This document shows, piece after piece, positions 2,372 through 32,200 of a stretch of DNA of 50,150 nucleotides. The position numbers and the translations under genes were made by a program. A model generated the notes under the pieces. That model saw nothing but the letters and a program-made list of their open reading frames with translations. It was not told where the DNA came from and searched no databases. This stretch comes from Deltaproteobacteria bacterium (lineage in GTDB: Bacteria > Myxococcota > XYA12-FULL-58-9), in NCBI GenBank assembly GCA_016218825.1, contig JACRCV010000097.1:1-50150 (forward strand). Reading direction: 5' to 3'. Within the stretch, counting starts at the first letter, position 1. Every line of letters starts with the position of its first letter.

Positions 2372-3385
2372 TCACGCCCGACGACGTCTGCCTGACTTGG
2401 AGAGCGACTTACGCATCAGGACTTGTCGCGCCGGCGCACCGACCTTCCGGAAGTGAGCTTCGATGGCGCGGCGCCACTTCTCGTTGCGGAATGGTCGGTA
2501 GCCGAGTTTGGTGTAGAGGTTGCGGGCGGCGGTGTTGTTGGCTGCGACGTTGAGCATGAGCTCTCGGTGCCCCGCCTTGGCCGAGGCAGTTTCCACAGCG
2601 GTCGTGACCCGGGCGCCCAAGCCGCTTCCTCGGAGCCACGGGTGGACCCACACGGCTCCGAGCCACCATCCGGGCAGCCCCAAAGATCGCCACATCGTGG
2701 AGCCAAGCGCGGAAGCGACCGGGCGCCGCAGAACCGTGGCACGAACGGCGATCTGCCTTGGGCAAGAGCTAGGCTGGCTTGCCTCAATGATGCAAAGTCC
2801 TGACAAGCCGGTGTGTCGCCTGAGTCCCCTGACGAAAGCGATACCGTTCGTCGAAGCCAGCGTGCGTGCGAGAATGGGTCTCAACCACCGTCGCACGGCT
2901 GCGGTTTGCCGATCGCAGGCCGACGCGAGCTGGGCGAAGCCGGTCCGGGCAATTAGCCCTGCAAACCTGACCCGCGCATCCCCGGCGCGCACGCGCCAGG
3001 CGCTCTCTTCCATCCACCTGCCGCCCTCTGCCACCGCGACAACGCGGCCGACAATCGTGCGCCGAGATACACGCTTCGGCCTTGCGTTCTCGTTGTCGCC
3101 GCACTGCCAGACACCTCCGATCGGGTCCACCCACAGGACACGGTGGGCCACGCTGCCGAAGATCATGATCTCCCCAGCGCGAGGGCGTGTATCCCTAGGA
3201 TCGTAGACGACCAGGCCACCCGATTGGATCGTCGGCGTCATCGACGCGCCCACGCCGACGGCAACCTCGTAGCACGGCTCCCACCCGCCTTTGCCCCGAT
3301 GGACACGGCGACGCGACCTATTCGCGACGCGGCGGGTACGAGCCTTCTCAGGCAGGCCATGCAGCCGAGATGCCTGGGTGGTCAT
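2372..3385 (-). CDS. S26/S24-type serine peptidase fused to GNAT N-acetyltransferase
   Basis: A 337-residue fusion. Residues ~40-122 form a signal-peptidase-like (S26/LexA-fold) domain: the GASMTPT motif carries the likely nucleophile Ser48, AGEIMIFG is box C-like, and VAHRVLWVD provides His81 at the general-base position, as in S26B-type enzymes rather than the Lys of bacterial LepB. A CGDNEN motif follows at 95-100. Residues ~235-300 are a GNAT domain with a WVHPWLRGSGLG acetyl-CoA loop and an LYTKLGYRPF C-terminal signature. No membrane segment is evident, so a cytoplasmic peptide-processing role is more likely than leader removal at the membrane. The start is supported by a strong GGAGGAAGG (3394-3402), 8 nt upstream. 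The gene diverges from the HPr-kinase-like/radical SAM pair. Cleavage and acetylation of the peptide at 5391-5573 is inferred from context. Confidence 0.7.
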   Translation of the reverse strand: MTTQASRLHGLPEKARTRRVANRSRRRVHRGKGGWEPCYEVAVGVGASMTPTIQSGGLVVYDPRDTRPRAGEIMIFGSVAHRVLWVDPIGGVWQCGDNENARPKRVSRRTIVGRVVAVAEGGRWMEESAWRVRAGDARVRFAGLIARTGFAQLASACDRQTAAVRRWLRPILARTLASTNGIAFVRGLRRHTGLSGLCIIEASQPSSCPRQIAVRATVLRRPVASALGSTMWRSLGLPGWWLGAVWVHPWLRGSGLGARVTTAVETASAKAGHRELMLNVAANNTAARNLYTKLGYRPFRNEKWRRAIEAHFRKVGAPARQVLMRKSLSKSGRRRRA

Positions 3386-3393
3386 GTCGCAGA

Positions 3394-3402
3394 CCTTCCT
3401 CC
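3394..3402 (-). promoter_or_regulatory. Strong Shine-Dalgarno fixing the start of the peptidase-acetyltransferase
   Basis: GGAGGAAGG read on the minus strand, 8 nt before the ATG at 3385. The rest of the 93-bp divergent gap (3386-3478) must hold promoters for both directions, but I see no convincing -35/-10 pair. Confidence 0.65.
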
Positions 3403-3478
3403 ACCGACCCAGGCCAGGGGGGTCGGATGGGCGGTACAGTCTGGACCAATTCTGCAGGCTGGTCTATGGCTCACCCTA

Positions 3479-4327
3479 ATGTCCGGCCAGCGCCGCGTGA
3501 ACATCAACGTCGCCACGATAGGGGTAGGGCTGGAGCTCGATCTCGATCGAGCCACGACGCAATCCATCGTTGAACGCTACGCGGCCTTCGCGACGACGCG
3601 GCCCCACGCAATTCTCAAGGTCACGAGATTTCCCGCACCGGGGCGTGATGAGATCGGAGACAGACCCTCGGCGCGAAGAACCAACGGAGCCCTGACGATC
3701 GAGCTCGAGGGAGCGTACACGGTTGCCATTGATGCCAGTCGACGCCGGGGCTTTCTTGAGTTCGCGGATCGCACCACGAACCTCGTTACGCACCCAGTAC
3801 CACCGGGTCTGCAAGCAGCCTTGCGAGCGCTGTACTCAGTCCTAATCTGCGAGCGTGGAGGCCTGTTGATCCACGGATGTGGAATCGATCTCGGTTCCCG
3901 CGCCGCCATCTTCGTCGGGCCTAGCGGCGCCGGGAAGTCAACGTTGAGCGCGATGTTCGATAGCGGTCGTGTGCTCAGCGACGAGCTGGTTGCGCTGTCG
4001 TTCGAAGGTCGCAGCGTCGTCGCACACGGAACGCCATTCTCCTACACGGACGCAAGCCATCCCCGACATCTGAGTCTGCCGCTGGCTTATGGCGGTATCC
4101 TCTCAAAAGGGCGGAGGTCATCGATCGCCACGGTCACCGCCACCGCCGCGTTTTCGGCCGTCACCAAGTGCCTCGCCCTACCGTACGGTTGTCTTGATCT
4201 CGAAGACGCAGCATTCCAAAGGGCTGGTTGCTTGGTGGGTGGCGTACCCTGGACGAGCCTCCGCTTCTCCACCGACAGAGCTACCACGAAACGAGCAGTC
4301 AAAGCTGGGGTGAAGCTGTTTCCATGA
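3479..4327 (+). CDS. HPr-kinase/phosphorylase-like P-loop protein of RiPP type
   Basis: A 282-residue protein. A GGLLIHGCGI strand at about 127-136 precedes a Walker A loop (VGPSGAGKST, ~146-155), and LSDE at ~167-170 matches the metal-binding motif of HPr-kinase-like enzymes. A GTPFSY motif and an LSLPLAYGGIL stretch follow, as in the HprK-related proteins of lasso-peptide and other PqqD-associated clusters. True HprK phosphorylates HPr Ser46; some relatives in lasso-peptide clusters phosphorylate a C-terminal Ser of the precursor. No HPr or PTS gene is nearby, so a peptide substrate is more likely here. The ATG at 3479 is preferred because earlier in-frame ATGs would overlap the divergent gene. 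The stop overlaps the next start as ATGA (4324-4327), implying translational coupling. Confidence 0.7.
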   Translation: MSGQRRVNINVATIGVGLELDLDRATTQSIVERYAAFATTRPHAILKVTRFPAPGRDEIGDRPSARRTNGALTIELEGAYTVAIDASRRRGFLEFADRTTNLVTHPVPPGLQAALRALYSVLICERGGLLIHGCGIDLGSRAAIFVGPSGAGKSTLSAMFDSGRVLSDELVALSFEGRSVVAHGTPFSYTDASHPRHLSLPLAYGGILSKGRRSSIATVTATAAFSAVTKCLALPYGCLDLEDAAFQRAGCLVGGVPWTSLRFSTDRATTKRAVKAGVKLFP

Positions 4328-5379
4328 GCGTCATGCAGAACCTTGTTGAATTGGCGGCAACTCAGGGTGTGCCTGCCCACGCAACAATCGAGCTCACTGC
4401 GAAGTGCCACCTGGCGTGTGCACACTGTTACGTCAGCCACGACCGTCAGACCAAGCTCAGTCTCGCATGCATCGTGTCGCTTCTTGCAGATCTCAAAGCT
4501 GCTGGCGGGCTCTTCGTCACATTCACCGGCGGGGAAATCGCTCTGCGGCCGGACCTGTACGAAATCGTCGCCGAGGCTCGACGAGGTAGGTTCGCCGTTC
4601 GCCTGTTCACCACCGGGACCCTGTGGGGCACCTCAGAATGGCAACGAGTCGCTGACCTTGGCGTTGAGAGCGTGCAAGTCAGCGTCTACGCAGACGGTCC
4701 GAAGATTCACGATCAGGTGACGGGACGCCGCGGCTCCTTCTCCAAGACGCTGGCCACGATCCACGGTCTTGTGGATCGTGGGGTGACGGTGGTCATTGGA
4801 TGTCCCATTCTCTCCACAAACGCTCGCCATATTCACAAGGTCGCGGCGCTGGCGGACCGCCTTGGAGTCGGCCTCAGGATAGACCCACTGATCACCGGTT
4901 CCGACTGCGGAGGGCCGGCGCCGAATGCTGCAGCAGCCTCTCCTGAGCTCCTGGCAGTGGTATACGGCCATCCGAGATTCCGACGCGCGGGCCCCGAAAC
5001 GGAGCTGCCAACAGAATCGCGAGGGGCGGCGGCGCGACCTTGTTCTGTAGGCGATGCCAGCGTGTTCGTGCGCAGCAGTGGTGACGTGATTCCATGTAGC
5101 CAGTGGCCGACCGTCGCAGGGAATGTTCTGCTCCAGCCACTCACAGAGATCTTCCACCGAAGTCCGGTATTCCGAGCATGCAGGGCCCTGACGAAGGATA
5201 CCCTTTGCTCCGGCGCGGGATGTGTCCACGCGCAGACTTGCAGGCCCTGTGCCGGCATGAACCTCCAAGAGAGAGGATCACTTGCGCTCCCGTCACTGAC
5301 GGTGTGCCGTGCAACCTTCGCGCGTAGAGCTAGCCATTCGCGGCGCCCACGACCTGCACAGATAAGCCCGCGCACTTGA
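4324..5379 (+). CDS. Radical SAM/SPASM peptide-modifying enzyme
   Basis: A 351-residue protein. The AdoMet cluster motif is C28-x3-C32-x2-C35 (AKCHLACAHCY), followed by TGGE at 68-71 in the SAM-binding region. The C-terminal part carries a SPASM-type cysteine set: C240-x12-G-x4-C258, then C295, C300, C306 and C309, and a final C328, plus an additional C286. This matches the CX9-15GX4C...C...C signature of enzymes that bind two auxiliary 4Fe-4S clusters and modify ribosomal peptides (thioether, C-C or similar crosslinks). It overlaps the HPr-kinase-like gene by 4 bp, so the two are coexpressed. The candidate substrate peptide lies head-to-head just beyond the stop. Codon choice is less GC-biased (AGG, ATA and others occur) than in genes right of 7.1 kb, which fits horizontal acquisition. 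The product chemistry cannot be predicted. Confidence 0.85.
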   Translation: MSVMQNLVELAATQGVPAHATIELTAKCHLACAHCYVSHDRQTKLSLACIVSLLADLKAAGGLFVTFTGGEIALRPDLYEIVAEARRGRFAVRLFTTGTLWGTSEWQRVADLGVESVQVSVYADGPKIHDQVTGRRGSFSKTLATIHGLVDRGVTVVIGCPILSTNARHIHKVAALADRLGVGLRIDPLITGSDCGGPAPNAAAASPELLAVVYGHPRFRRAGPETELPTESRGAAARPCSVGDASVFVRSSGDVIPCSQWPTVAGNVLLQPLTEIFHRSPVFRACRALTKDTLCSGAGCVHAQTCRPCAGMNLQERGSLALPSLTVCRATFARRASHSRRPRPAQISPRT

Positions 5380-5390
5380 CGCGCGTCAGC

Positions 5391-5573
5391 TCACGTCTGG
5401 CCGAACCCGACGTCCGTACAGTTCGTGTTGGAGGACGCCTTGGCACACGCGAAGAGCACCTGGCGCTCGAAGATCTCTTCCTCTTGCACTCTCGGCCCGG
5501 TGTAGGTCCTCCGCGATTTCCGCTTCGCTTCGCCGTTCCCATTCCCTGCGTTCCTCAAGGCTGTCTTCCGCAT
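5391..5573 (-). CDS. Candidate RiPP precursor peptide (60 aa)
   Basis: The ORF encodes a basic N-terminal stretch, then TYTGPRVQEEEIFERQ and the tail VLFACAKASSNTNC followed by TDVGFGQT. The Y-x-x-P pattern followed by an acidic helix and a small Ala/Cys/Lys transition resembles leader regions recognised by PqqD-type RREs, as in lasso and several radical SAM RiPPs. Two cysteines spaced C-x8-C could be crosslink sites. I count G or C at the third position in 50 of 60 codons, whereas the overlapping frame from 5580 is much less biased; this supports real coding. An AGGTG ribosome-binding sequence lies 4 nt before the ATG. It starts 7 bp after the giant lipoprotein stop on the same strand, and converges with the radical SAM gene with an 11-bp gap. 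No database match could be checked. Confidence 0.6.
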   Translation of the reverse strand: MRKTALRNAGNGNGEAKRKSRRTYTGPRVQEEEIFERQVLFACAKASSNTNCTDVGFGQT

Positions 5574-5580
5574 ATTTCAC

Positions 5581-8500
5581 CTACCTGAATAGATAGATCG
5601 AACCTGCATCACGCGTGGAAAGTACCATCTGCGGTTCGGTCGCAGCAGTCCCAGGCACGAAGCCGTTGGCCGCCGCCAGTCCAGTGCCAAAACTGGGCGC
5701 CCCGCGGAGAATCGCTCGCTTCACGAAACCGCCTGCCCCAACATCAAGCGAGTACAAGTAGACACCAAAGTTTCCGACACCTGCGTTGTAGCCAGGACCC
5801 ACCAATATGTCCACGCCGGACAACCCGTCAAAGTCGCCAACGGCCGCGAGGGAGTTGCCGTACTGAGTCGGTGGCAACCCGGTCCAGTCTGTCGGGTCAA
5901 GCGCGGCCGGCGACGGCACGATGCCAGGGCTACCGCCCAAGGCAGTCCCTTTGTATACAAAGACCTGCCCATTGCCAGCCGCTTGTACAAGGAGCCAGTC
6001 GGCCAAGTCCGCCGCACCGAGTGGGTTGGTGATGCCGAGAAGAGTCTGACCGAAGTTGACGCCACCTGCAGGATAGCGCAATACCGTCATGAGCTGCGAA
6101 GGCGCTGAATCCGGTGCTGCAACATCGCCCACTAGACCCGCGCCACCACGGTAGACGTAAACCTCGCCGCAATTGTTGCAGGACCCCGACGAGTCGTGGC
6201 TTGCCGTATTGTCGCTCACCACAACGTCACCCGCCCCGTCGCCATTGACGTCGGCAACGGTAAGGAAGAACGGAAAGAGGCCGAACAACGACGCCTTGCG
6301 CTGGAGTGAGAGCTCGGGCCGATTGGCGAAGCCGGAGCTGGGCGTTGATACCAAATCGAGGTTTATCAAGCTGGTAGCCGAACCCGAGGACGGGAAACGA
6401 GAACGGGATCCTCCAAAAAAGCCGTACACGCGCGGCTTGTTCCCTGTTGGCTGTGTCGTCACTACGATGTCGGCGCCGTGGCGTCCGTCCACGTCGCCAA
6501 GGCTCAAACGATAGCAGAACCTCGCATTGGCGGGTCCGAGCAGCGCGACATCCGGCGTCACTGAGGGCAACTGAAAATCCGTTGTGTTCAAGTCTCGGCG
6601 GATGCCTTCGCCTGCCTTGCCGTAGTACAGATAGAGCGCACCAGCCGCGGCCCCAGAACTAGTTGCACCGGTTGTCGGCATGGTGGGGGCGCACACGGCG
6701 AGGTCCGAGAGTCCATCGCCATCGAAGTCGCCGCCCGCGATGTTGACGCCGAAAAGACCAGGCCCGTTGGCCGGCGACATAATGACAACGTCTGGTGAGG
6801 TTAGGCTCCCACTGCTCAAGAAGAGCGACACCGAAAACACCTCGGTCCGTCGGGTCACGCCGAAATCGCCACGGCCGTCACCATCAAGGTCACCGAGGGC
6901 GGTCACGGTGTTGCCAAACCATGTTGATGAAGCGACAGAGGCCAGGGCCGCGGCAGCGCTGTCGTCGACCGGAGAAACCGGATCAAACCCCACCACCTGA
7001 GGATAATTGACGAGCGGCATCGCCCGCTCCCGAACCGAGCTGGCCACCACCGCCTTGTTCCCAGCATCATCGACGCCGAGAACCGCGAAGCAATACGAGC
7101 GATGCGGATAGAGGTCGGTGATGCCGGCCCGCTCCTGCCCGCCCGGCGCCGCGGTCGCCGTCACGTTGACGACCTGCTCCACCTTGGCCGCGTCCGTCGC
7201 CACGAGCTCGGCGCACTGGGTGTACGTGACGCTCTGGGCGGTGGGCGGCTGCGGGTATGGAATGCCGCGCGCCGCGACCAGGATCTGATAGCTCACGACC
7301 GCCCCGCCGCTCGCCCCGTCCTCCGCCGGCGCCTGCCACACGAGCGTCGCCTTGCCCTTGCGCCGATCGCACTTGCCGGTCACCGCGCAGTGCGCCGCAC
7401 AGCTCGGGTCTTCGTAGGTCGAGGGATCGCTCGCCGGCGTCGAGACGGTGTACGGCGTCGTCGACTCGCCGATGCAACAAGTCGCCTGCGCCGCCCCAGG
7501 CACCAACACGTCGGTCTTGGCGTAAAGGGTCTCGGGATCCCGCGGCGTCGTGATCGTCGCCTGGTTCCCGGCCCGATCCATGAACGCCACCGTCAGCTGA
7601 TGCGCCTCCGCACCCGCGAGCGTCGGCACGTTCAGCTCTCTGAACGTCGCCGAACCCGCCTGACAGGTCGGACAACCGGTGGCCGCCTCGTCGTTGCCCG
7701 TGAGCCCGCCCCGGTTCGACACCAGCCGCACCCGCTCGCCCGGCTCCACGCCCAACAACCGGACCGTGAGGGGCTTGCCGGTGGCGAGGATCGTGAAACC
7801 ATTCGACGGCGTCAGGTCCTGATCCCCGGCCGCGTTCCAAACCGCCGGCGACGCCGCCCCCACCATGTTCGCCTGGTTGTCGCCGTCCCACTGCCCGGCG
7901 TCCACGCAGGTCGTCAGATCCGTCGGACAGATGCCGCCGCCGGTGAGCGGCACCCCCAGCTTGCACAACGAGCAACGGTCGAACTGGAACGTCGGCGGAT
8001 CGATGTCGGCGATGATGTTGTTGTACTGCCGCAAGCCGCAATTCGCGGCGGCCGCGCAGTTCACCGTGACGATGACGCTGTTGATCTTGTCCGCCGCTCG
8101 GTCCCCCGGATGTGGGCTGGTCCGCAGGACCACCCCGCTGAAGTCGACCTCGAAGACCGTCGACGAGATCGTCGCGAGCGTCACATCCGCCGTCGTGCTG
8201 GTGTTCACCTGGAAGTCGATGGTGGTGGGCGTCAGCGCCGCAGCCGAGGTCCTCGTGACCCGCACCCGCAGATTGGTGGCGAAGGCGCCGGGCGCGCCGA
8301 GATTCTCCGCCGGCCCCCAGTAAATGTCGTTCGCCAGGAAGTCGCCGGTCGCCCCCGGCGGCACCAACCCGTTCAGTCGCTCCACGACCACCAACACGCC
8401 GTCCAAACTGAGCTTGAGGTAGATCGGGTCTGAATGACTGACGTTGTCGTTGCTGTCGATCGCCGCCACCCGCACCGCCCGCACCACTCCAGGCGCCAAC

Positions 8501-11500
8501 CGGTAGCCCGCCGGGTAGGACCCGAGCGTCAGGTCGGTCGCCACCCCGATACGACTGGTGTCCACTTCTTCGTAGGTCGACGTCACCCCGACGATCAGCG
8601 ACTCCAACCACACCGTGGCTGCAGATGCCTCGATCGTCGCGTCGCTGTTCACGAGGCCCGATAGCGTGTAGCGCAGGTCGGTGCCACCGTTGTTCCGATA
8701 CGGATCGGTAGCATCCAAATCCAACAGCGCGAGGCCGTCGTTGTTGTCCGGGTTCTTGTAGTCCGCAACACAGCCATCCACCGCGTCGACCTCACAGGTC
8801 GACTGGTGCTGGAGCGGACTCACCGACCAGACCTGGAGCGTCAGACCCGGCCCGTAGAAGTCCGCCGGATACAGCGTCCGCGCCGTCGTCGTCTTGTTGC
8901 CCGCCGCGTCGACGAGCTCCGCCTCGAGGTAGTTCTTCCCCATGTGCAGCAGGAACGCCGGGAACGAGATACTGGTTTGGCCGGCGGTGAGCGTCACCAC
9001 CGCGCTCTCGAGCGCCGTGCCCCCGGCGGCAGCGTCGAACGACCGCAAGGTCAGCTGCCCGCCCGCGAGATCCTCGTTGTCCGCCACCGCCACCAGCACG
9101 CCGACGCCGAGCTTCTGGTTCCCGTCCGGCGTCCCGTCCGCCGAGGTGTAGGGTGCCGCGCCATGCGCCGGCCCCGGCAGGCTCACCGTCGGCGGGATCA
9201 GGTCGACGACGACGTCCTGCGACGCCACCAGGTCGGTCGTGACGTCGTTGTAGTTGCCGGCGTCGTCGCTCACCCGCACGAACACATGCTGCCGCCCACC
9301 GTACAGATCCACGTCGACGCTCGCGATCTGCGTCGTCGCGTCGCCGCCGAGCACCACGCCCGCGACGCTCACCACCGTGCTCGCCGCCGGCACGTCGCTC
9401 AGGACGTCGACGCTGCGACCCGGGGTCGAGCCGGTCACGGTGATGTCGAGCCGGGTCCGGAGCCGGTCCGCCGTTCGGGTGCGCTCGGTCTCGCCGAGCA
9501 GGAAATAGCCGCTCTGGTCGTTCGCGGTCTTGTTGTCGACGTAGTCGACCGCGCTGACCGACGGCGGCACCGAGTCGACGCTGAAGGCGAAGAACGACGA
9601 GAACGAGTCGGGGTTCTTGTCCGGCGCCACCACCTCGGCGTGGATGGTCTGCAGCCCGTCGGCGAGCGTCACCGCCGACATGAACGCCGAGCTCGCCGCC
9701 AACGACCCGACGAGCACGCCGGTGGCGATGACATAGCCCGCGGTCGGATCCGGCGTCGCGAAGTCCGTGCGGATGTTCAGCGGGTTACCGTCCGGATGCC
9801 AGCGGCAACAATCGAGCTCGCTGCCGGCGGCGCAGGTGCCCACCGCGCCCGCCGTGGGCTCGGTCGAGCACAGCTTCAGCGTCGTCCCCGGCGCGAACGC
9901 CACCACGTTGAAGGCGAAGGTCGCCTGAATGCCGGTCTGATTCGGATCGTTGTCGCGCCCGTTGTTGACGGAGCCCGGACCGCCGGGGATCGCCCAGTTG
10001 ACCCGCGCCTCCAGCCCCTTGACCTCGAAGCTGTAGGAGCTCGCCGGCGCCACGTTCCCGGCCAGGTCGGACACTGACGCGGTGGCCCGGTACAACCCGT
10101 CCGCGAACGCCAGGGTCGGGAAGCTCACCGTCGCCGTCGCGGGCAGCGTGAGCGGGAAGTCGCTCGCGGTCTTGCCTTGCGGTGGCGGGTCGATGGTCAA
10201 CGAGACGTTGCCGACGGCGTCACCGGTCACGTCGTACTTGAACGCGTAGTCGACATACGTCGAATCGACATTGGCGTCGTCCGAACGCGACAGCAACGTC
10301 TGCGACGGCGGCGGCGACTGTTGCGTCAACACCGGCGGCACCATGTCGACGGTCAACGTCGCCGCCGTGCCGGTCGCCTGGTTGCCGCCGAGATCGGTCA
10401 CCCGCGCCTGGAACGAGATCGAGCCCGACGTGGCGACGCCGAAGTCGACGTTGCCGAAGGTGACGAGCACCGGATCGCCGCCGGTCGCGAGCACCGTGCT
10501 GTAGGTGGTCGCGCTCCCGGCGCCCGGTGGCGTGACAGACAGCGACACCGTCCACCCGGCGGGATCGGCGCCACCGGTGTGCACGACCACCCCCACCGAG
10601 TGTTGCAGCCCGGCGAGCCCGGAGTCGTCGGCGACGAGGGTGTTGACGTAGCCCGGCGGGCTGAACACCAGACGCCCGGGCGTGCCGGGATCCTCGCTGC
10701 GCAGGTCCGGCGCCGGCGGCGCGGTGTCGTCGATGGTGACCCGGATCGTCTGGCTCACCCCCGAGCCGCACTCGACGCGAACGTCGTGCGTCGCTTCCGA
10801 GGCGTCCGCCGCGGTGTCGATCACGAGCGGCGCCGCGGTCGGCTCGGTCCAGGTGGCGGTGCCGTTGGCGCTGCCGTCGATGAACAAGGAGCACGCCGCG
10901 TTGGCGTAGGTGCCCGACGCCTCGGCGCCGACGTACACCGCGTGCACCTCGAAGGCGGTGTTGCCCGTCGCGCTGCCGGCGGGCGGCGCCGAGATCACGA
11001 GCTCCGGCCCCGCTGCCGGCGTCGTGATCGTCGCCATCGCGCCGCTCGCGGTGTTGCCGAGCGCGTCGGTGTAAACCGGCGTCAGCTCGATCCCCGTCCC
11101 CGACGGCAAGCTCGCGTCGGTGAAGGTCACGCTCGTCGCCCCGGCGCCGATCGGCGCGCTCAGGACATTGTAGACCGTGCCGCCTTTGCCGACCGTCACC
11201 GAGATCACGCCGCTCTGAGTGTCGGCGGCCGCGAGCTCCACAGTGAGCGTCTGGTTGAACCCCGGAAGGCCGCCGTTGCTGTCGGTCGGGCTCGCCGCCA
11301 CCGCCGGGTTGAAGGTGGGCACCGGCGCCGTGTCTTTGACCGTCACCAGCACGTTCTCGCTCAGGTTGTTGATCGCGTCGTCGACCGAGACCGCGATGCA
11401 GTTCTGCCCCGAGGCGAGCGGCACGCCGGTGAACAACACGCCGCCCGCGGTCTCGAAAACCGTCGCGATCGGCCCGGCCGCGGGAACCCCGGCGCACTGC

Positions 11501-13584
11501 CGCACCCCCGCCGTCGTCGTCGAGCCCGGAAAGACCTCCACGGTCACGGTGCGCGGGTAGCCGGCGAGCCCGAGCCCGGTCGCGACGTCTAGATCCACCT
11601 GCGTCTGCCGGATGGTCAAGCCGTCGGCGAGCGCGCGCCGACGGGTAAAGTCGGCAACACAACCGGCGGCCCCGGTCGCGTTCCACATGCAACCGGCGGC
11701 CGAGGCGCACGCCGTCTGGTCGTTCACCGCACAGCCCGAGTTGTCGGCGACGTAAGGCGTCACCACCACCGCCGCGGGCGACGACGACACCGTCACCGTG
11801 ATCGGGGCGCTGTCGACGTCGTTGTTGCAGACGTCCTTCACGCGCGCCACCAGGGTGTGGGCGCCGTCCGAGAGCGACACCGGCTGCAAGATGGTGCCGC
11901 CGACGCCGACCGGCGGCACGAAGTTGTAGGTCGCGTCGCCGGTCAACAGCCGCCCGATCGAGCCCGCCGGCACGTTGGCCAGCGTCAGCCCGACGTCGTA
12001 TTGCAGGCCGGCGATGTTCCGCTCCATGTCGTCGGCCACGCCGAGGCGCGCCTGGTCGTCCGGCGCCGAGATCGTCACCGTCGGCGGCGTCGTCGACACC
12101 GTGACCTGGGCGCGACGCGCCGCGCTCCGATTCCCAGCGACGTCGAGCGCGGTGTACTCCACGGTCACGTCACCGTCCCCCAGGTCCACCTGACGCACGA
12201 TGAAGCTGCCGGCGGTCACCGTCCCCACGCCGCGGCAGAATGCGTCGCGACACAGCTGCGGCGCGGCGCAGTCGGTATCGGCAACGCACGCGGTCGCCGT
12301 CCCGCTCGTCGGGTAGACCATCACCCAGACCTCGGCACCGTCCTCGGCGCCGGCGACGTTGCCGTTGGCGTCGGTCTGGATGCCGGGGATCGCGGTGTAG
12401 AGATCTTGCGAACCGACGTAGCACCCCCCGGGGCCCGGGGTGAGCGGCACCACGGTCGGCGGGTTCGAGTCGACCCAATAGCGCGTCGGCAGCGTCACAC
12501 CCGACTGCCCGGGGTTCTCTTCTACCACGCCGACCAGCTCGATGTCGTAGCGGCTCGGGCCGGCGCTCTCGTCGAGCTGCACGCTGGTCATCCGGAAGCG
12601 CCACCCCAACGGATCCGCGGTCGCGACCGGCGGCGTCGACAAGATCAGAGTCGTGTACGCCGGCTGCGGATCATTCGCGCTGCGCTTGCGGTAGTGCATC
12701 GTGACCGTCGACGCGCTGCCGCAATTGGTGACCAGGTCGAGGGTCGCCTGCATCCCGCCGACCGGGTTCAGATCGGCGTCGTCTTTGGCGAGCAGCTTCG
12801 CGCCGTCGATCGGCTCCAACACCGCGAGACAGCGCGCGGTGTCAACCGTCACCGTCGCCGTGGTCGGCGCCCCCGATGCGGCCGCAACCTGGGGCACCGC
12901 GGCGAGGGCGTTCGGCCCCTCGGCGAGCGGCACCCGCAAGAACGTGGCGCGCAGCCCCGGCAGGCCCGACAGGGCACCCAGCACCGCGGTACGCGGCAGA
13001 CCGCCGTTGACGCGCAGCAAGACCACCTCGCCCTCGGTGCCGCCGAAGCAATCGAGCTCGACGTCGACCTCGAACGGGTCGAAGGGATCCTGGGCGTTGA
13101 CGTACTCCGGGTTCTCCGCGGTGAGGACGCTGCCGTCCGCCGGATCGTTGAAGGCACACGCCGCGAGCTTGACGGTGACGGTGACCTGGGCGCAACGGTC
13201 CCCCTCGCACTTCATCGACTCTTCCCAGGCCGGGATCGCGACCCGCAGGATCACCGCCCCCGACGGCAAGGTGTAGCCGGGGAACACGACCCGATCGCCG
13301 CTGACGGTCCCCTCCACCCGGTGCGCGGCGCCGTCGACGCTGTTCCACAGGTAGATGCTGTCGCCGTCGTTCATGTTGGTGACGGTCGCCTGGACGTTGC
13401 TCTGGATCCCCGCCGCCGAGCTGACATCGTCGGTGGGTCCGAGGACGCTGCCGTCGAGCGGAAACTCAAAAGCCAGCCGCGGCTCGTTGTACGTCACCCG
13501 CGCCCGGCCGCAGCTCCCCGAGCAGCCGAACGGCAACAGCAGCACCGCCACCAGCCCCAAACGCAGAGTCCGCATCGATGTCAC
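5581..13584 (-). CDS. Giant secreted lipoprotein: multiple Ig-like domains, Fn3-like domain, C-terminal FG-GAP propeller
   Basis: About 2,667 residues. The N-terminus is a lipoprotein signal (LVAVLLLPFGC, lipobox Cys21; +2 Ser suggests outer-membrane sorting). Residues ~60-2080 are a long series of bacterial Ig-like units of roughly 100-130 aa with repeated DxAGN/DxxGN turns (LVDAAGN, VSDLAGN, VKDVCNN) and scattered cysteine pairs. An Fn3-like unit lies at ~2085-2175 (VWQAP...PHRSYCFAVLGVDDAGN). The last ~450 residues carry five clear FG-GAP/calcium-loop motifs (GDLDGDGRGDF ~2228, GDFDGDGLSDL ~2288, GDVDGRHGADI ~2365, ADVNGDGAGDV ~2446, GDFDGLSGVDI ~2585). A GTG at 13584 with GGAGG 5 nt upstream overlaps the pqqD-like stop (GTGA); the ATG at 13575 is the alternative. 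An adhesive or structural surface role is likely. Base composition changes near 7.05 kb, close to the start of the propeller part. Confidence 0.85.
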   Translation of the reverse strand: MTSMRTLRLGLVAVLLLPFGCSGSCGRARVTYNEPRLAFEFPLDGSVLGPTDDVSSAAGIQSNVQATVTNMNDGDSIYLWNSVDGAAHRVEGTVSGDRVVFPGYTLPSGAVILRVAIPAWEESMKCEGDRCAQVTVTVKLAACAFNDPADGSVLTAENPEYVNAQDPFDPFEVDVELDCFGGTEGEVVLLRVNGGLPRTAVLGALSGLPGLRATFLRVPLAEGPNALAAVPQVAAASGAPTTATVTVDTARCLAVLEPIDGAKLLAKDDADLNPVGGMQATLDLVTNCGSASTVTMHYRKRSANDPQPAYTTLILSTPPVATADPLGWRFRMTSVQLDESAGPSRYDIELVGVVEENPGQSGVTLPTRYWVDSNPPTVVPLTPGPGGCYVGSQDLYTAIPGIQTDANGNVAGAEDGAEVWVMVYPTSGTATACVADTDCAAPQLCRDAFCRGVGTVTAGSFIVRQVDLGDGDVTVEYTALDVAGNRSAARRAQVTVSTTPPTVTISAPDDQARLGVADDMERNIAGLQYDVGLTLANVPAGSIGRLLTGDATYNFVPPVGVGGTILQPVSLSDGAHTLVARVKDVCNNDVDSAPITVTVSSSPAAVVVTPYVADNSGCAVNDQTACASAAGCMWNATGAAGCVADFTRRRALADGLTIRQTQVDLDVATGLGLAGYPRTVTVEVFPGSTTTAGVRQCAGVPAAGPIATVFETAGGVLFTGVPLASGQNCIAVSVDDAINNLSENVLVTVKDTAPVPTFNPAVAASPTDSNGGLPGFNQTLTVELAAADTQSGVISVTVGKGGTVYNVLSAPIGAGATSVTFTDASLPSGTGIELTPVYTDALGNTASGAMATITTPAAGPELVISAPPAGSATGNTAFEVHAVYVGAEASGTYANAACSLFIDGSANGTATWTEPTAAPLVIDTAADASEATHDVRVECGSGVSQTIRVTIDDTAPPAPDLRSEDPGTPGRLVFSPPGYVNTLVADDSGLAGLQHSVGVVVHTGGADPAGWTVSLSVTPPGAGSATTYSTVLATGGDPVLVTFGNVDFGVATSGSISFQARVTDLGGNQATGTAATLTVDMVPPVLTQQSPPPSQTLLSRSDDANVDSTYVDYAFKYDVTGDAVGNVSLTIDPPPQGKTASDFPLTLPATATVSFPTLAFADGLYRATASVSDLAGNVAPASSYSFEVKGLEARVNWAIPGGPGSVNNGRDNDPNQTGIQATFAFNVVAFAPGTTLKLCSTEPTAGAVGTCAAGSELDCCRWHPDGNPLNIRTDFATPDPTAGYVIATGVLVGSLAASSAFMSAVTLADGLQTIHAEVVAPDKNPDSFSSFFAFSVDSVPPSVSAVDYVDNKTANDQSGYFLLGETERTRTADRLRTRLDITVTGSTPGRSVDVLSDVPAASTVVSVAGVVLGGDATTQIASVDVDLYGGRQHVFVRVSDDAGNYNDVTTDLVASQDVVVDLIPPTVSLPGPAHGAAPYTSADGTPDGNQKLGVGVLVAVADNEDLAGGQLTLRSFDAAAGGTALESAVVTLTAGQTSISFPAFLLHMGKNYLEAELVDAAGNKTTTARTLYPADFYGPGLTLQVWSVSPLQHQSTCEVDAVDGCVADYKNPDNNDGLALLDLDATDPYRNNGGTDLRYTLSGLVNSDATIEASAATVWLESLIVGVTSTYEEVDTSRIGVATDLTLGSYPAGYRLAPGVVRAVRVAAIDSNDNVSHSDPIYLKLSLDGVLVVVERLNGLVPPGATGDFLANDIYWGPAENLGAPGAFATNLRVRVTRTSAAALTPTTIDFQVNTSTTADVTLATISSTVFEVDFSGVVLRTSPHPGDRAADKINSVIVTVNCAAAANCGLRQYNNIIADIDPPTFQFDRCSLCKLGVPLTGGGICPTDLTTCVDAGQWDGDNQANMVGAASPAVWNAAGDQDLTPSNGFTILATGKPLTVRLLGVEPGERVRLVSNRGGLTGNDEAATGCPTCQAGSATFRELNVPTLAGAEAHQLTVAFMDRAGNQATITTPRDPETLYAKTDVLVPGAAQATCCIGESTTPYTVSTPASDPSTYEDPSCAAHCAVTGKCDRRKGKATLVWQAPAEDGASGGAVVSYQILVAARGIPYPQPPTAQSVTYTQCAELVATDAAKVEQVVNVTATAAPGGQERAGITDLYPHRSYCFAVLGVDDAGNKAVVASSVRERAMPLVNYPQVVGFDPVSPVDDSAAAALASVASSTWFGNTVTALGDLDGDGRGDFGVTRRTEVFSVSLFLSSGSLTSPDVVIMSPANGPGLFGVNIAGGDFDGDGLSDLAVCAPTMPTTGATSSGAAAGALYLYYGKAGEGIRRDLNTTDFQLPSVTPDVALLGPANARFCYRLSLGDVDGRHGADIVVTTQPTGNKPRVYGFFGGSRSRFPSSGSATSLINLDLVSTPSSGFANRPELSLQRKASLFGLFPFFLTVADVNGDGAGDVVVSDNTASHDSSGSCNNCGEVYVYRGGAGLVGDVAAPDSAPSQLMTVLRYPAGGVNFGQTLLGITNPLGAADLADWLLVQAAGNGQVFVYKGTALGGSPGIVPSPAALDPTDWTGLPPTQYGNSLAAVGDFDGLSGVDILVGPGYNAGVGNFGVYLYSLDVGAGGFVKRAILRGAPSFGTGLAAANGFVPGTAATEPQMVLSTRDAGSIYLFR

Positions 13585-13940
13585 AGCGACCTCCCCGAGC
13601 CCGTCTTGGCCCTGACCGGCACCAGCACGTCTCTTTTCGCGAGCACACCCACGAACCCCTGGGCGTCGGCGAGCGCTCGCGTCGCGGTGGTGTCGAACTC
13701 TCGCACGATCTTGGCCACCACCTGCGGGATGGTCGCGGCGTGCTCGAAGCTCTCCCAGATGAAGGTCCCGACCTCGTTCAAGCGCAGCATCCGGCTGTTC
13801 AACAGGATGAACGCGGTGCCGTCGAGCGTCCGGCACGCCACCCGCGGGTTCCACTGCCAGCGACCGGCCGCTTTGGCGCTGCGGATATTCTTCGGCCTCG
13901 CGGCCGGCTTCTTGGCCTTCGGCTTGGACTTGGTCGTCAT
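13581..13940 (-). CDS. PqqD-family peptide-chaperone (RRE) protein
   Basis: A 119-residue protein. After a Lys/Pro/Ala-rich basic N-terminus (~1-25) comes a PqqD-like winged-helix: WNPRVACRTLDGTAFILLN, then RMLRLNEVGTFIWESF, an ATIPQVVAKIVREFD helix, and DAQGFVGVLAKRDVLVP. The LNEVGTFIW motif and the alternation of beta strands and helices are diagnostic of the family, which binds leader peptides and presents them to radical SAM enzymes. It is locked between spoVR (ATGA overlap) and the giant lipoprotein (GTGA overlap), so it is cotranslated with both. The nearest radical SAM enzyme (4324-5379) has no fused RRE, and a candidate precursor follows the lipoprotein in the same orientation. This protein may serve that system in trans; that link is inference. 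The long basic N-terminus is unusual. Confidence 0.75.
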   Translation of the reverse strand: MTTKSKPKAKKPAARPKNIRSAKAAGRWQWNPRVACRTLDGTAFILLNSRMLRLNEVGTFIWESFEHAATIPQVVAKIVREFDTTATRALADAQGFVGVLAKRDVLVPVRAKTGSGRSL

Positions 13941-15430
13941 GGCTCGGTCTCGATCTCCGTCTGCTTGTAATCGCGGCCGTCGAAGCGCTCCAGCACCACC
14001 TTGTCGTCGGCCCGGGTCACGATGCCCACCGGCCGGGTCCACATCGCGTGCAGGCTCTTCAAGGTGTCCCTCATCCAGTCCTGGCGGAGCGGCGTGCCCT
14101 CGTAGACGTGCTTCAACAACAGCTCGCCGCGGTTCTCGAAGTTGCCGTCCACCACCTGGATCACCGGCTGACCGAAGTTCGTCAGTGAGAACAACAGCTT
14201 GTTCTTCACCGCCTTGAACTCGCGGTCGGTGATCTCCCAGTTGTTGGTCTTCTCGTTGAAGCCGTAGGTGAACAGTTTGTGGTCGCGCACGAAGTCGATG
14301 GTCAGGAACTCGTCGATGAAGGTGACGTCATTATAGTGACGGCGCACCTCGAAGATCTTCTTGCGCCCCTGGCCCTCGCGCGTGTCCCAGCTCTTGCGCC
14401 TCGCGAGGCTGTCGCACTCCTGCCACTCTTTTCCGAAGCGACCCTTGTTCCAGCGGTCCTCGATGTCACGAAACAACTCGAGGCCGAGCTTGTAGGGGTT
14501 GATGGTCCCGGGCTGCACCCCCATCGTCCCGGCGTGGCGATCGGCGTAGTCGATGAGCTCCGAGGGCTCGAGCGCCTTCTGGGTCATGATCGTCGTGTGC
14601 CAGAACGACGCCCAGCCCTCGTTCATGACCTTGGTCTGGCCCTGCGGCGCGAAGTAGTAGGCTTCGTCGCGCAGCATCGCCATCACGTCGCGCTCCCAGT
14701 TCTCGAGCGGCGCGTTCTCGAGCACGAACAGCATCACGTCGCGCTCCGGCCGCTCCGGGAAGCGCCGCGCCCGCTCGCGCTCCTCTTTGATGCGCTTCTT
14801 CTGCTCCTCGATAAACTCGTCGGGGTTGATGTAGCGTTGCATGTACTCGCGGTCGGTCTTCAGGCGCGGCACGTCGGTGACCTCGACGTCGCGCTCCGGC
14901 TTCTCGGCCTTCTCCGAGCGCCGCTTGATGAACGGCGCCTGGCGGTCGACGAGGTTCTCGATCGACAGCACCCGGTCGATGAACCCCTCGACCTTCTCGA
15001 CCCCGTAGCGATCGATGTAGCGGCGGATCCGGGTGCCGTGATTCGCCATCGTGTCCATCATCTTGCGGCTGGTGTGCGCGAACGAAAAGTTGTTCTTGAA
15101 GAAGTCGACGTGACCGTAGACGTGGGCCATCACCATCTTCTGATCGACGTCGGCGTTCGACACCATCAAGTAGGCGTACGAAGGGTCGTTGTTGATCACC
15201 AGCTCGTAGATCTTCGACAACCCGTACGAGTAGCTCTTCGCCAGGTGCTCGTACTCCATGCCGAACTTCCAGTGGGGGTAGCGGGTCGGAAAACCGCCGT
15301 AGGCGGCGATCATGTTCATCTCGTCGTACGACACCGACTCGAAGATGGTGTCGTAGAAATCGAGCCCAAAGTCGCGTGCATAGCGTTCGACCTGGGCGCG
15401 GATCTTCTCGAGATGTGCGGGCAGCGGCAT
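13937..15430 (-). CDS. spoVR: SpoVR family protein
   Basis: A 497-residue protein matching the SpoVR/YcgB family over its whole length. Conserved stretches include YDEMNMIAAYGGFPTRYPHW, an AYLMVSNADVDQKMVMAHVYGH motif with Asp/His residues, NFFKNN-like NNFSFAHTS, NEGWASFWH, and a C-terminal beta-rich part. In Bacillus it affects spore-cortex formation; in enterobacteria it is a sigma-S-linked gene usually beside yeaH and prkA (yeaG). Neither partner is here; instead a PqqD-like gene and a giant lipoprotein follow with 4-bp overlaps. The biochemical activity of the family is unsettled. The ATG at 15430 precedes the first conserved residues, as is usual. A 92-bp gap separates it from the divergent aconitase-family gene. 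Confidence 0.9.
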   Translation of the reverse strand: MPLPAHLEKIRAQVERYARDFGLDFYDTIFESVSYDEMNMIAAYGGFPTRYPHWKFGMEYEHLAKSYSYGLSKIYELVINNDPSYAYLMVSNADVDQKMVMAHVYGHVDFFKNNFSFAHTSRKMMDTMANHGTRIRRYIDRYGVEKVEGFIDRVLSIENLVDRQAPFIKRRSEKAEKPERDVEVTDVPRLKTDREYMQRYINPDEFIEEQKKRIKEERERARRFPERPERDVMLFVLENAPLENWERDVMAMLRDEAYYFAPQGQTKVMNEGWASFWHTTIMTQKALEPSELIDYADRHAGTMGVQPGTINPYKLGLELFRDIEDRWNKGRFGKEWQECDSLARRKSWDTREGQGRKKIFEVRRHYNDVTFIDEFLTIDFVRDHKLFTYGFNEKTNNWEITDREFKAVKNKLLFSLTNFGQPVIQVVDGNFENRGELLLKHVYEGTPLRQDWMRDTLKSLHAMWTRPVGIVTRADDKVVLERFDGRDYKQTEIETEP

Positions 15431-29243: not shown

Positions 29244-32200
29244 TCAGGGGGAGCCCCGCACCACGACGTCGGCCGAGACCGCGGCCGCGCCGTTCGCGGC
29301 GTTGTCGGCGGGGGTCACCTCGCAGCGCCAGAGGTCGTTCAGCTTCACGAGCCGGCCGGGGACGTTGGTCGACGACGGCGAGAACGGCTGCGCCACACCG
29401 TCCTTCGACCAGACGTAGCGGTAGTGCACCGGATCGCCGTCGATGTCTTTGGACTCGGCGTCGATCACGCAGGCGAGCTCCTGCCCGGGCCTCGGACCCT
29501 CCGGGGTCACCTTCACCCGCGGCGGCGTCGGCGCCGAGTTCCGGACCACGGTCTTCGCGAGCACCGGACCGGAGGTCGCGCTGCCGTCGCTCACCGTGAC
29601 CTCACACTGCCAGGTCTCGCCCCGCTTGGTCGCCGCGGCCGACACCACGCTCGACGGCGCAGCGCCCTTGGCGCCCGGCGCCGCGGTCGCCGCGTAGCGC
29701 TTGCCGTCCACCGTCCACGCGAAGGCGTAGGTCAGCGGATCGAGATCGGCGTCGACCGCCGGGCGGCTGAGAGCGCAGACCAGATCGGCCTCGGTTCCCG
29801 GGGACGCCGGCGTGATCGTCGCCACCGGCCGCTCCGGCGGCGTGTTAGCCACCGTGACCGGCGCCGACCTGGCGACCGCCGCCACCAGCTCGCCGTCGAA
29901 GGCGGCCATCTCGCATTGCCAGCTCTGACCCTTCTTGGTACGCGCCGCCGGCACCGAGTCTTGGCCGGGGGCGAGCGGCGCCGGCTGGCCATCGACCAAC
30001 CAACGGCTGCGGTAGCTCAACAGATCGCCGTCCGGGTCGGTGCCGTCGACGGTGCGCTTGCACGTCAGATTGTCGGTGGCCCGCGGCGCCGCGGGCTCGA
30101 TCGCGAGGCGCGGCGGCGCCGGCACGTGGTTCTGCACCCAGAGCTCGGCGACCGCGGCCTCGCCTTCTTCGTCGCCGTCGAACGCTTTGACCTCGACCCG
30201 CCAGTGTTGGCCTTTGCGGGCGTCGCCCGCGGCGAGCGCGCTCTTGCTCTGCGCCCAGGCGCTCATCGCGACGTCGTCCCTGTACCACCGATAGCGGTAG
30301 GTGAGGGTGTCGCCGTCCTTGTCGCTCGCCTCGCGGACGATCTTCACCTCGCTCTGCTCGGTGACCGTCGGCCGCTCGAGGGAGAGCGCGATCTCCGGGG
30401 CCGCCGGCGGCGTGTTGCGGATCCCGAAGCGCAACGTCGCCAGCGGCCCGTCGACCTCGCCGTCGGTCGCCAGGATCGCTACCTCCCACTGCTCGCCCTT
30501 CTTGGTGTCGGCCGCGGCGAGCCCGGCCTTGTTGTCGCGAAATCCGGCCGGCTTGCCGTCGCGGCGCCACAGATAGCGCAGCGTCAGGGCGTCGCCGTCG
30601 TCGTCCTTGGCGGCGACCCGAATCCGCGGCGTGATCGGCTCGTCGGTCGCGAACTGGTAGCGCGGCAGATCGACGTCGGGTCGGGTCGGCGGCGAGTTCT
30701 CGATCCGCGTCTCCACCGTCACCGCGGCGCCGTCCGCCTCGCCGTCGAACGGGGTGACCGTCAGAGACCAACGCTGGCCCTTCTTGGTCTCCTGGCTCGC
30801 GACCGTGGTCGGCAGCTCGACCTTGAGGCCGTCTTTCGCCCATTGGTGCTTCAGGCGCACCGCGTCCCGATCCGCGTCCGCCACCTCTTTCGCCAGCCCG
30901 AGCACCAGATCGTCGGCGGTCTTCGGATGCGGCGGCCAGATCACGACGGTCGGCGCCGGGGGCGCGGTGTTGACCGCGGTCGCGACCACGCTCGCCTTGG
31001 CGCCCGGCTCTTGATCGTCGTGCGCGGTCACCTCGACCTCGAGGCGCTGGTGCTTGCGCAAGGCGCGCGGCGGCACGCTCGCCAGCGTGTCTGCCAAGGC
31101 GAAGGGCGCACCGTCGATCGAGTAGCGGTAGGTGTAGGTGACGACGTCGCCGTCGGCGTCGGGCGCGGCGCGGGCAATCTTCACGGTGGCGACGTCGTCG
31201 ATGCGCGGCGCCGCCGGCTCCAGCGCGACCTTGAAGTCGGCGGGCGGAGTGTTGCGGATCTGGACCGACGCCGTCGCCGGCGCGCCCTCGATCTCGCCGT
31301 CGAAGGGCACGACGATCACCTGCCAGACCTCGTTCTTCACCGTCAGGCTCGGCTCGACCCGGGTGGCGGTGACCGGGAGCCGCTGCGGGCGATCGTTCTT
31401 CAGCCACGCCTGCCGATACTCGATGCGGTCGCCGTCGGCGTCACTGCTCGCGCGGCTCACCGCGACCTCGAGGGTGTCGGTGGTGCGCGGCGTCTCCGGG
31501 CTGAGCTTGATCTCGGGACGCTGCGGCGCGGTGTTCAGGACCTCGACGCCGGTGCTCTTGAAGACGCGGCTCAGCACCCCGCTGTCGCCGTAGGCCTTGA
31601 AGTTCGCCCCCTCTTGGACGCTGTAGCTCCAGCGCTGGTGCTTCTCGGTCTCGCTGGCCGGGATCTCGCGCTTGTTGTCGAACGCCGCCTGACGGGCGCC
31701 GTCCTTGAACCACCGGATCTGGGTGTCGCGCTCCGGCTCCCGGTCGAGATCGAAGTAGGTGTACTTGACCACCAGCGCCTCGGTGGTGAGCGGCTTGATG
31801 TTGGCGAGCTGCAGATCTTTGAAGCGCGCCGGGTTCGGCGCGTGCCGGCCCGAGCGCTGCGGATCGTGGCCGACCATCGGCCAGTCGGCGATCGCCGCCT
31901 CCGCTTTGCCGGTCGCTTGCACCAACGCCACGTGGATCGCGGGCTCGGGCCCGGCGACCACCACCTCGAGGACACCGTCGCCGTTCAGGTCACCGACCGC
32001 CGGCGCTCCCTGGGCGCGACCCTCGATCTCGAGGGCGCGCTCGGCGCCCGCCGCGGTGAGCAAACGCAACACCCCGTCGTCGCCGGCGATCAAGATCTCG
32101 GGCCGGCCGTCGCGGTCCATGTCGGCGATCGCGGCGTCGGCGTCGAAGCGCGCCGGGGTGACGAGCGGAAAGCCCTCGAGCGCCTTGCCGGCCCCGGTCC

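Follow-up and report, generated by a model that had tools for sequence, protein, structure and literature searches.

A Probable Radical SAM-Bearing Peptide-Maturation Locus Beside a Giant Integrin-Like Protein Gene in Myxococcota

Gene Content of the Locus

The window analyzed here is a 50,150-nt stretch of contig JACRCV010000097.1 (assembly GCA_016218825.1, Deltaproteobacteria bacterium, Myxococcota), numbered from its first letter on the forward strand. Near its left end lies a gene cluster of the kind that produces ribosomally synthesized and posttranslationally modified peptides (RiPPs). A preliminary description had placed four genes within positions 2372-5573: an S26 peptidase fused to a GNAT acetyltransferase, an HprK-like kinase, a radical S-adenosylmethionine (SAM) enzyme with a SPASM domain, and a short peptide. 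Open reading frame (ORF) calls, Pfam, and NCBIfam find all four where they had been placed. These genes do belong together, but the cluster is larger, since a discrete PqqD-type RiPP recognition element (RRE) and a giant secreted protein had been overlooked.

The precursor peptide (5391-5573, minus strand) has 60 residues and an ATG start, and in 14 other loci the giant gene is immediately followed by a counterpart of it. It carries a leader motif, Y24-x-x-P27-x-V29, followed by F35-E36, and two cysteines, Cys43 and Cys52; the predicted core, Q38-T60 (5394-5462, minus strand; QVLFACAKASSNTNCTDVGFGQT), was delimited from alignments and by analogy with LppA of a system known from Bacillota (PMC13381572). 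Eleven aligned peptides have in common basic residues, Y-x-x-P-x-[ILV], and L-x(1,2)-C; as a rule they also have F-[ED] 11 residues past the tyrosine and, after the first cysteine, another. The family motif reads Y-x-x-P-x-[ILV]-x5-F-[ED]-x3-L-x(1,2)-C. None of these first 11 peptides matches Pfam or NCBIfam. The strict form of the motif is found in 12 of the 5,415 short ORFs of the studied loci, and 9 of the 12 lie inside cassettes.

The radical SAM/SPASM protein (4324-5379, plus strand; 351 residues), a putative peptide maturase on the basis of Pfam, alignment, and a tree, matches Pfam Radical_SAM (5.3e-17) and SPASM (1.7e-7), with all NCBIfam scores below cut-offs. The CxxxCxxC motif is present, and so are the SPASM cysteines, of which the preliminary description had credited the enzyme with a full set, except that the window protein has C-x4-C where its relatives have C-x2-C. 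Its start overlaps the stop of the kinase gene in an ATGA, as had been reported. The HprK-like P-loop kinase (3479-4327, plus strand; 282 residues from the best start, 3479) scores only 1.7e-6 with TIGR04352 (27 bits, where the cut-off is 200). Alignment of the kinases reveals invariant His132, Ser149, Gly152, and Lys153 (P-loop), and Asp168. An AlphaFold model (pLDDT 75, pTM 0.77) searched with Foldseek against the PDB returns the PEPCK/HprK fold, the best match being PEPCK (E 6e-8) and the HprK/P structures 1ko7, 1knx, and 1kkl following at 3e-5 to 1e-4.

The S26-GNAT fusion (2372-3385, minus strand; 337 residues) has a clear acetyltransferase domain (Pfam FR47 2.3e-11, Acetyltransf_1 2.7e-11). 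Its peptidase domain is weak in Pfam (S24, 0.016) and falls below the cut-off of TIGR02228 (5.5e-4), and emerges clearly in the family alignment, with Ser48, His81, and Asp97. Among 18 aligned members of the set the His is kept in all and the nucleophilic Ser in 17, the exception being a Cys in genome G001; most have the Gly-Asp box. As judged from these residues, the pattern is that of archaeal/endoplasmic reticulum-type signal peptidases. Thus the S26 and HprK assignments, weak by single-sequence search, are settled by alignments. Hydropathy shows no strongly hydrophobic stretch; the preliminary description had called the peptidase soluble-looking. We regard the protein as a predicted leader peptidase joined to a lineage-specific tailoring enzyme. 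It is divergent from the kinase and radical SAM genes, and the 93 bp between the two gene starts (3386-3478) probably hold the promoters of both gene sets.

The PqqD gene (13581-13937, minus strand; 118 residues, PF05402 3e-11) had escaped notice inside a spurious 5' extension of the giant ORF and surfaced in a PqqD search of the window's own genome; its translation and its conservation in other genomes agree with the call, and it supplies the locus with a candidate leader recognition element. Between it and the peptide lies the giant gene (5581-13575, minus strand), conserved beside the peptide and encoding a probable lipoprotein of 2,664 residues. The N terminus of this protein is hydrophobic and ends in Gly-Cys, a putative lipoprotein signal, and Pfam finds Ig-like domains (PF19077, 1.6e-15) and, toward the C terminus, FG-GAP repeats. 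An AlphaFold model of the last 659 residues, of moderate confidence (pLDDT 60), retrieves integrin alpha headpieces in Foldseek (E 5e-10), so the C terminus is predicted to form an integrin-alpha-type propeller, and the protein is probably secreted and displayed. It contains one YxxP-like match, near the N terminus; the number is about what chance gives and the match is absent from the N terminus of the congener's protein, and we rejected it as a meaningful motif. Spacing along the minus strand is tight, with the stop of a SpoVR-family gene overlapping the PqqD start, 5 bp between PqqD and the giant gene, and 7 bp between the giant gene and the peptide.

Conservation and Co-Inheritance

The same arrangement is found in close relatives. 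Genome G002 (Deltaproteobacteria bacterium RIFOXYA12_FULL_58_15), from another genus of the family, has SpoVR-PqqD-giant-peptide facing radical SAM-HprK, followed by a divergent S26 gene in the same place as in the window (L030). In G001 (Myxococcota RA.bin128), from the same genus, SpoVR-PqqD-giant-peptide faces radical SAM-HprK up to the contig end, and an S26 gene lies at another contig end, oriented as expected if both ends adjoin. The radical SAM gene of G001 (L031:18009-19393) is split between two frames around codon 151, through either assembly error or decay.

The partner of the peptidase changes among these genomes. The window protein carries GNAT; that of G001 (L045:3535-4821, minus strand) is fused to a family-2 glycosyltransferase that weakly resembles MftF and has GSCM in place of GxSM, that is, Cys for the nucleophilic Ser; and the S26 protein of G002 has no fused partner and is preceded by a methyltransferase-like gene (a weak match, below cut-off). 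Because the S26 proteins of G001 and G002 lack a GNAT domain, acetylation is not conserved, and we rejected it as a step of the class, although the preliminary description had included it in the joint pathway.

Further out, we mapped the set in phylum-level relatives, many of them fragmented metagenome assemblies, with profiles built from the proteins of the window, G001, and G002. A scan of genome contigs with the single window radical SAM protein had found no relative, and relatives were then sought by whole-genome search; a scan with the giant-protein alignment gave six loci, two of them new. PqqD, giant, peptide, HprK, radical SAM, and S26 genes recur at this larger distance, fully collinear in G028/L043, and the order giant-peptide-HprK-radical SAM-S26 is collinear in L063 and L064, from the independent giant-alignment scan. 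Counting loci with the 3' end of the giant gene in view (window, G001, G002, L032, L033, L035, L036, L038, L040, L043, L063, L064, G005/L085, G065/L115, G129/L122, and G004/L057), we find the peptide immediately after the giant gene in 15 of 16, with YVKA for YxxP in L063 and WxxP in L038. It is this conservation of the peptide in sequence and position across genera that lifts the gene set above chance.

Cassettes are also found without the giant gene, in the order PqqD-radical SAM-peptide-HprK-S26 (most of L089-L094, L114, L116, and, within its available sequence, L109). One is a second, compact cassette of the present genome (contig C78, L058:5460-8441), whose peptide is EREPYEAPRLEQVEIVAGEAMLSMCKTGGEQGAFSICGGGCGAAGS. 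In a tree of 25 radical SAM sequences the presence of the giant gene requires 2 changes, versus 8.7 for shuffled labels, and eight compact cassettes fall on one side of a branch with support 100/99; several end branches are long, and the inner order is therefore unsure.

Profiles of the precursor itself lead back to the same enzymes. A first profile, built from 11 peptides and searched over 58 genomes, found new peptides just behind radical SAM relatives in G044, G022, G039, G041, G036, G030, and C78 of the present genome, and one new peptide behind a giant gene, in G005. Several of these matches have E-values up to 0.5 and are convincing because of their genomic position. A second profile, built from 19 peptides and searched over 195 genomes, reached 12 further genomes, in 9 of which the peptide adjoins at least one of the radical SAM, HprK, S26, or giant genes (G018, G181, G065, G024, G136, G092, and G129, and, with an S26 gene only, G104 and G105). 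The locus thus has a conserved short precursor gene next to modifying enzymes. The preliminary description had proposed looking for the genes together with a short YxxP peptide elsewhere, and this association recurs in many genomes; the outcome it had named as contrary, homologues scattered independently or lacking such a peptide, did not hold, because, of the 12 genomes from which the profile drew no sequence, 9 yielded new peptides beside cassette genes.

Separately, G027 encodes a tandem pair of YxxP peptides that closely resemble each other (contig C18, around 731.5 kb; L088:9469-10051), ~305 kb from a giant-linked cassette with two radical SAM genes; they are possible extra precursors.

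Relation to Known Peptide Systems

The closest precedent in logic is the linear polyphosphorylated peptides (LPPs), RiPPs of Bacillota described in 2026 with the genes lppA/K/B/S/D/N (PMC13381572). In that pathway the YxxP leader is bound by the RRE protein LppB, and core residue Ser3 is phosphorylated by LppK. Cleavage after F-E-T is the work of LppS, which resembles archaeal-type signal peptidases and has S29/H68/D93, and it requires that LppB present the precursor (PMC13381572). The same work calls LPPs restricted to Bacillota and states that their biological role is not known; radical SAM does not occur in its text (PMC13381572). Shared with the window locus are a discrete RRE, an HprK-like kinase (here with the conserved His/Lys/Asp and the PEPCK/HprK fold), a soluble archaeal-type signal-peptidase-like leader peptidase with Ser-His-Asp (S48, H81, D97), a YxxPx[VIL] leader, and F-E before the cleavage site. 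The window locus differs in its radical SAM/SPASM gene (4324-5379), its giant integrin-like lipoprotein, its Cys-containing cores, and its host range of Myxococcota and relatives. The LPP leader consensus YxxPxVLxHQxIxFETxxS is not matched: both leaders have YxxPx[ILV] and, further on, F-[ED], but the spacing and the HQ differ. Nor is there an NTP transferase at the locus, the sole PF14907 match of the genome being on contig C119. On these three grounds (leader consensus, NTP transferase, and radical SAM) we take the window pathway to work like an LPP pathway without being a member. The preliminary description had related the combination to no described class, but RRE, HprK-like kinase, peptidase, and YxxP leader occur together, without radical SAM, in the LPP systems (PMC13381572).

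Other systems share parts of the set. The SynChlorMet cassette likewise unites PqqD-like, HprK-like P-loop, and radical SAM/SPASM proteins (ScmC, ScmD, ScmE/ScmF), but the matches are far below cut-offs (bits: ScmD 23.5/100, ScmE 68/400, ScmF 63/400, ScmC 11/125), and the peptides match no NCBIfam model. GeoRSP (TIGR04302/TIGR04303) pairs a PqqD-family chaperone with a radical SAM/SPASM enzyme; here the scores are 99/400 and 20/100 bits, and kinase, S26 peptidase, and giant lipoprotein lie outside those two models. Paeninodin-type lasso peptides share the PqqD-type RRE, a [Y/W]xxP leader, and an HprK-like kinase, but the window's contig (C77) has no match to the Asn-synthase-type cyclase (PF00733), and the window locus has radical SAM and S26 genes instead. 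Membership in the lasso, GeoRSP, and SynChlorMet groups was rejected on the missing cyclase or the sub-cut-off scores. Sactipeptide maturases (StsB, AlbA, SkfB) are among the better matches of the radical SAM protein (StsB 5.5e-27), and the cores contain Cys as in those systems; the matches are again below cut-offs, and the window locus also has a kinase and an S26 peptidase. Among open-licence papers we found nothing relevant on SynChlorMet, GeoRSP, or FG-GAP proteins with PqqD, and a description elsewhere is possible.

Proposed Pathway and Alternatives

We consider it likely that the locus encodes a radical SAM-bearing RiPP pathway akin in its logic to the LPPs of Bacillota, and the product of this conserved, undescribed gene set is very probably a small peptide carrying chemical modifications. 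From gene content, conservation, synteny, the leader motif, catalytic-residue conservation, and co-inheritance we infer the reactions and their sequence, the point at which the leader is cut, and a partnership with the giant protein, as follows. The discrete PqqD-type RRE would hold the 60-residue precursor through its YxxP leader motif. The radical SAM/SPASM enzyme would act on the C-terminal core with its Cys residues, most likely introducing a thioether or other cross-link or an oxidation; this core is the simplest target for the enzyme, and thioether formation is a candidate chemistry. The HprK-like kinase would phosphorylate Ser/Thr of the core, and the soluble S26 domain would remove the leader after F-[ED]-x. 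By analogy with F(-3) E(-2) T(-1) of LppA, the leader of the window peptide would end at R37 (F-E-R), leaving QVLFACAKASSNTNCTDVGFGQT. A tailoring enzyme attached to or beside S26 may then finish the product: GNAT here, glycosyltransferase in the congener, a methyltransferase-like gene in the next genus. The pathway would make this product for the giant integrin-propeller lipoprotein, whose gene immediately precedes that of the precursor, or alongside it.

A RiPP-type pathway is well supported by conservation. The interpretation in the preliminary description is partly upheld and needs correction on three points: the additional RRE and giant genes, the status of acetylation, and the LPP precedent.

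Several observations weigh against this reading. HprK, PqqD, and radical SAM proteins fall far under every curated NCBIfam cut-off, so that no subfunction follows from their families. No dedicated exporter (MsbA-like included) was recognized among the Pfam-scanned ORFs of the window, the contig starting 2.4 kb left of the cluster. Peptide cores vary strongly, and two giant-linked peptides (L043, L063) carry a single Cys, which makes one common cross-link uncertain. The sixteenth giant locus (G004/L057, contig C1:78000-97900) has PqqD and giant genes with no peptide, kinase, or radical SAM gene beside them; G004 also has a compact cassette, on contig C7 (L044). Finally, 3 of the 12 genomes reached by the second peptide profile (G042, G081, and G082, of one genus) have YxxP peptides with no cassette nearby. 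These peptides (L086, L087, L117, L119, L120) form a separate YxxP family, PPR[IL]-x-K-K-R-A-V-S-R-A-T-L-F-x-G, with no HprK, radical SAM, or S26 gene nearby, and may belong to another RiPP type.

The tight linkage of the giant gene could instead mean that the enzymes modify or process the giant lipoprotein itself, with the short peptide as a chaperone or a leader in trans. PqqD adjoins the giant gene throughout the closest genomes, including G004, where neither peptide nor radical SAM gene lies beside the pair, and the giant label tracks the radical SAM tree. Nevertheless we judge this explanation unlikely: the peptide-enzyme cassette stands without a nearby giant gene in many genomes, including the second copy in the present one, and the giant protein offers no YxxP-like match above chance level or shared with the congener's N terminus.

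Somewhat less probable still is that this ribosomal peptide is converted into a redox cofactor, as are the precursors of pyrroloquinoline quinone (PQQ) and mycofactocin, rather than into a secreted product. A SPASM enzyme with a discrete PqqD would suit such a role, as would the resemblance to mycofactocin MftF, albeit weak, of the glycosyltransferase fused to S26 in one relative. The PqqE and mycofactocin models, however, match weakly, the cores vary in length and sequence as a cofactor would not, the Pfam-scanned window ORFs show no dedicated dehydrogenase, and the neighbor is an extracellular propeller protein. That the four genes are unrelated neighbors and the peptide ORF spurious, as weak S26 and HprK family scores, the divergent S26 gene, and a peptide on the strand opposite radical SAM might suggest, is already contradicted by the comparative data and highly improbable, given synteny and peptide sequence conserved across genera and families, profile-found peptides beside the same enzymes, and the concentration of the strict motif in cassettes.

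Returning to the RiPP pathway, the peptide may act together with the giant protein, a partnership suggested by gene order and co-inheritance only. We tentatively propose, as an idea with rather less than even chances, a RiPP class in which the peptide, cross-linked, phosphorylated, and variably capped, is a ligand or prosthetic partner of the giant integrin-like propeller lipoprotein, inherited with it as part of an adhesion or kin-recognition surface system. The fixed position of the precursor behind an integrin-like surface protein gives a testable clue to the role of such peptides.

These results define a peptide-maturation cassette that recurs among Myxococcota and related bacteria and whose precursor family has no Pfam or NCBIfam match, and extend the signal-peptidase/HprK/RRE peptide logic past Bacillota with radical SAM chemistry added. 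The changing tailoring domain on the peptidase (GNAT or glycosyltransferase) offers a natural series for the study of late-stage tailoring.

Neighboring Genes

The SpoVR-family gene (13937-15430, minus strand), identified by Pfam and synteny, also stands ahead of the PqqD and giant genes in G001, G002, and G003; in G004 the association is looser. It is a conserved neighbor within the family and order, and its membership in the pathway is doubtful. A second large FG-GAP protein (29244-33116, minus strand; 1,290 residues, FG-GAP_3 4.4e-20) is encoded elsewhere in the window, with no link there to peptide enzymes.

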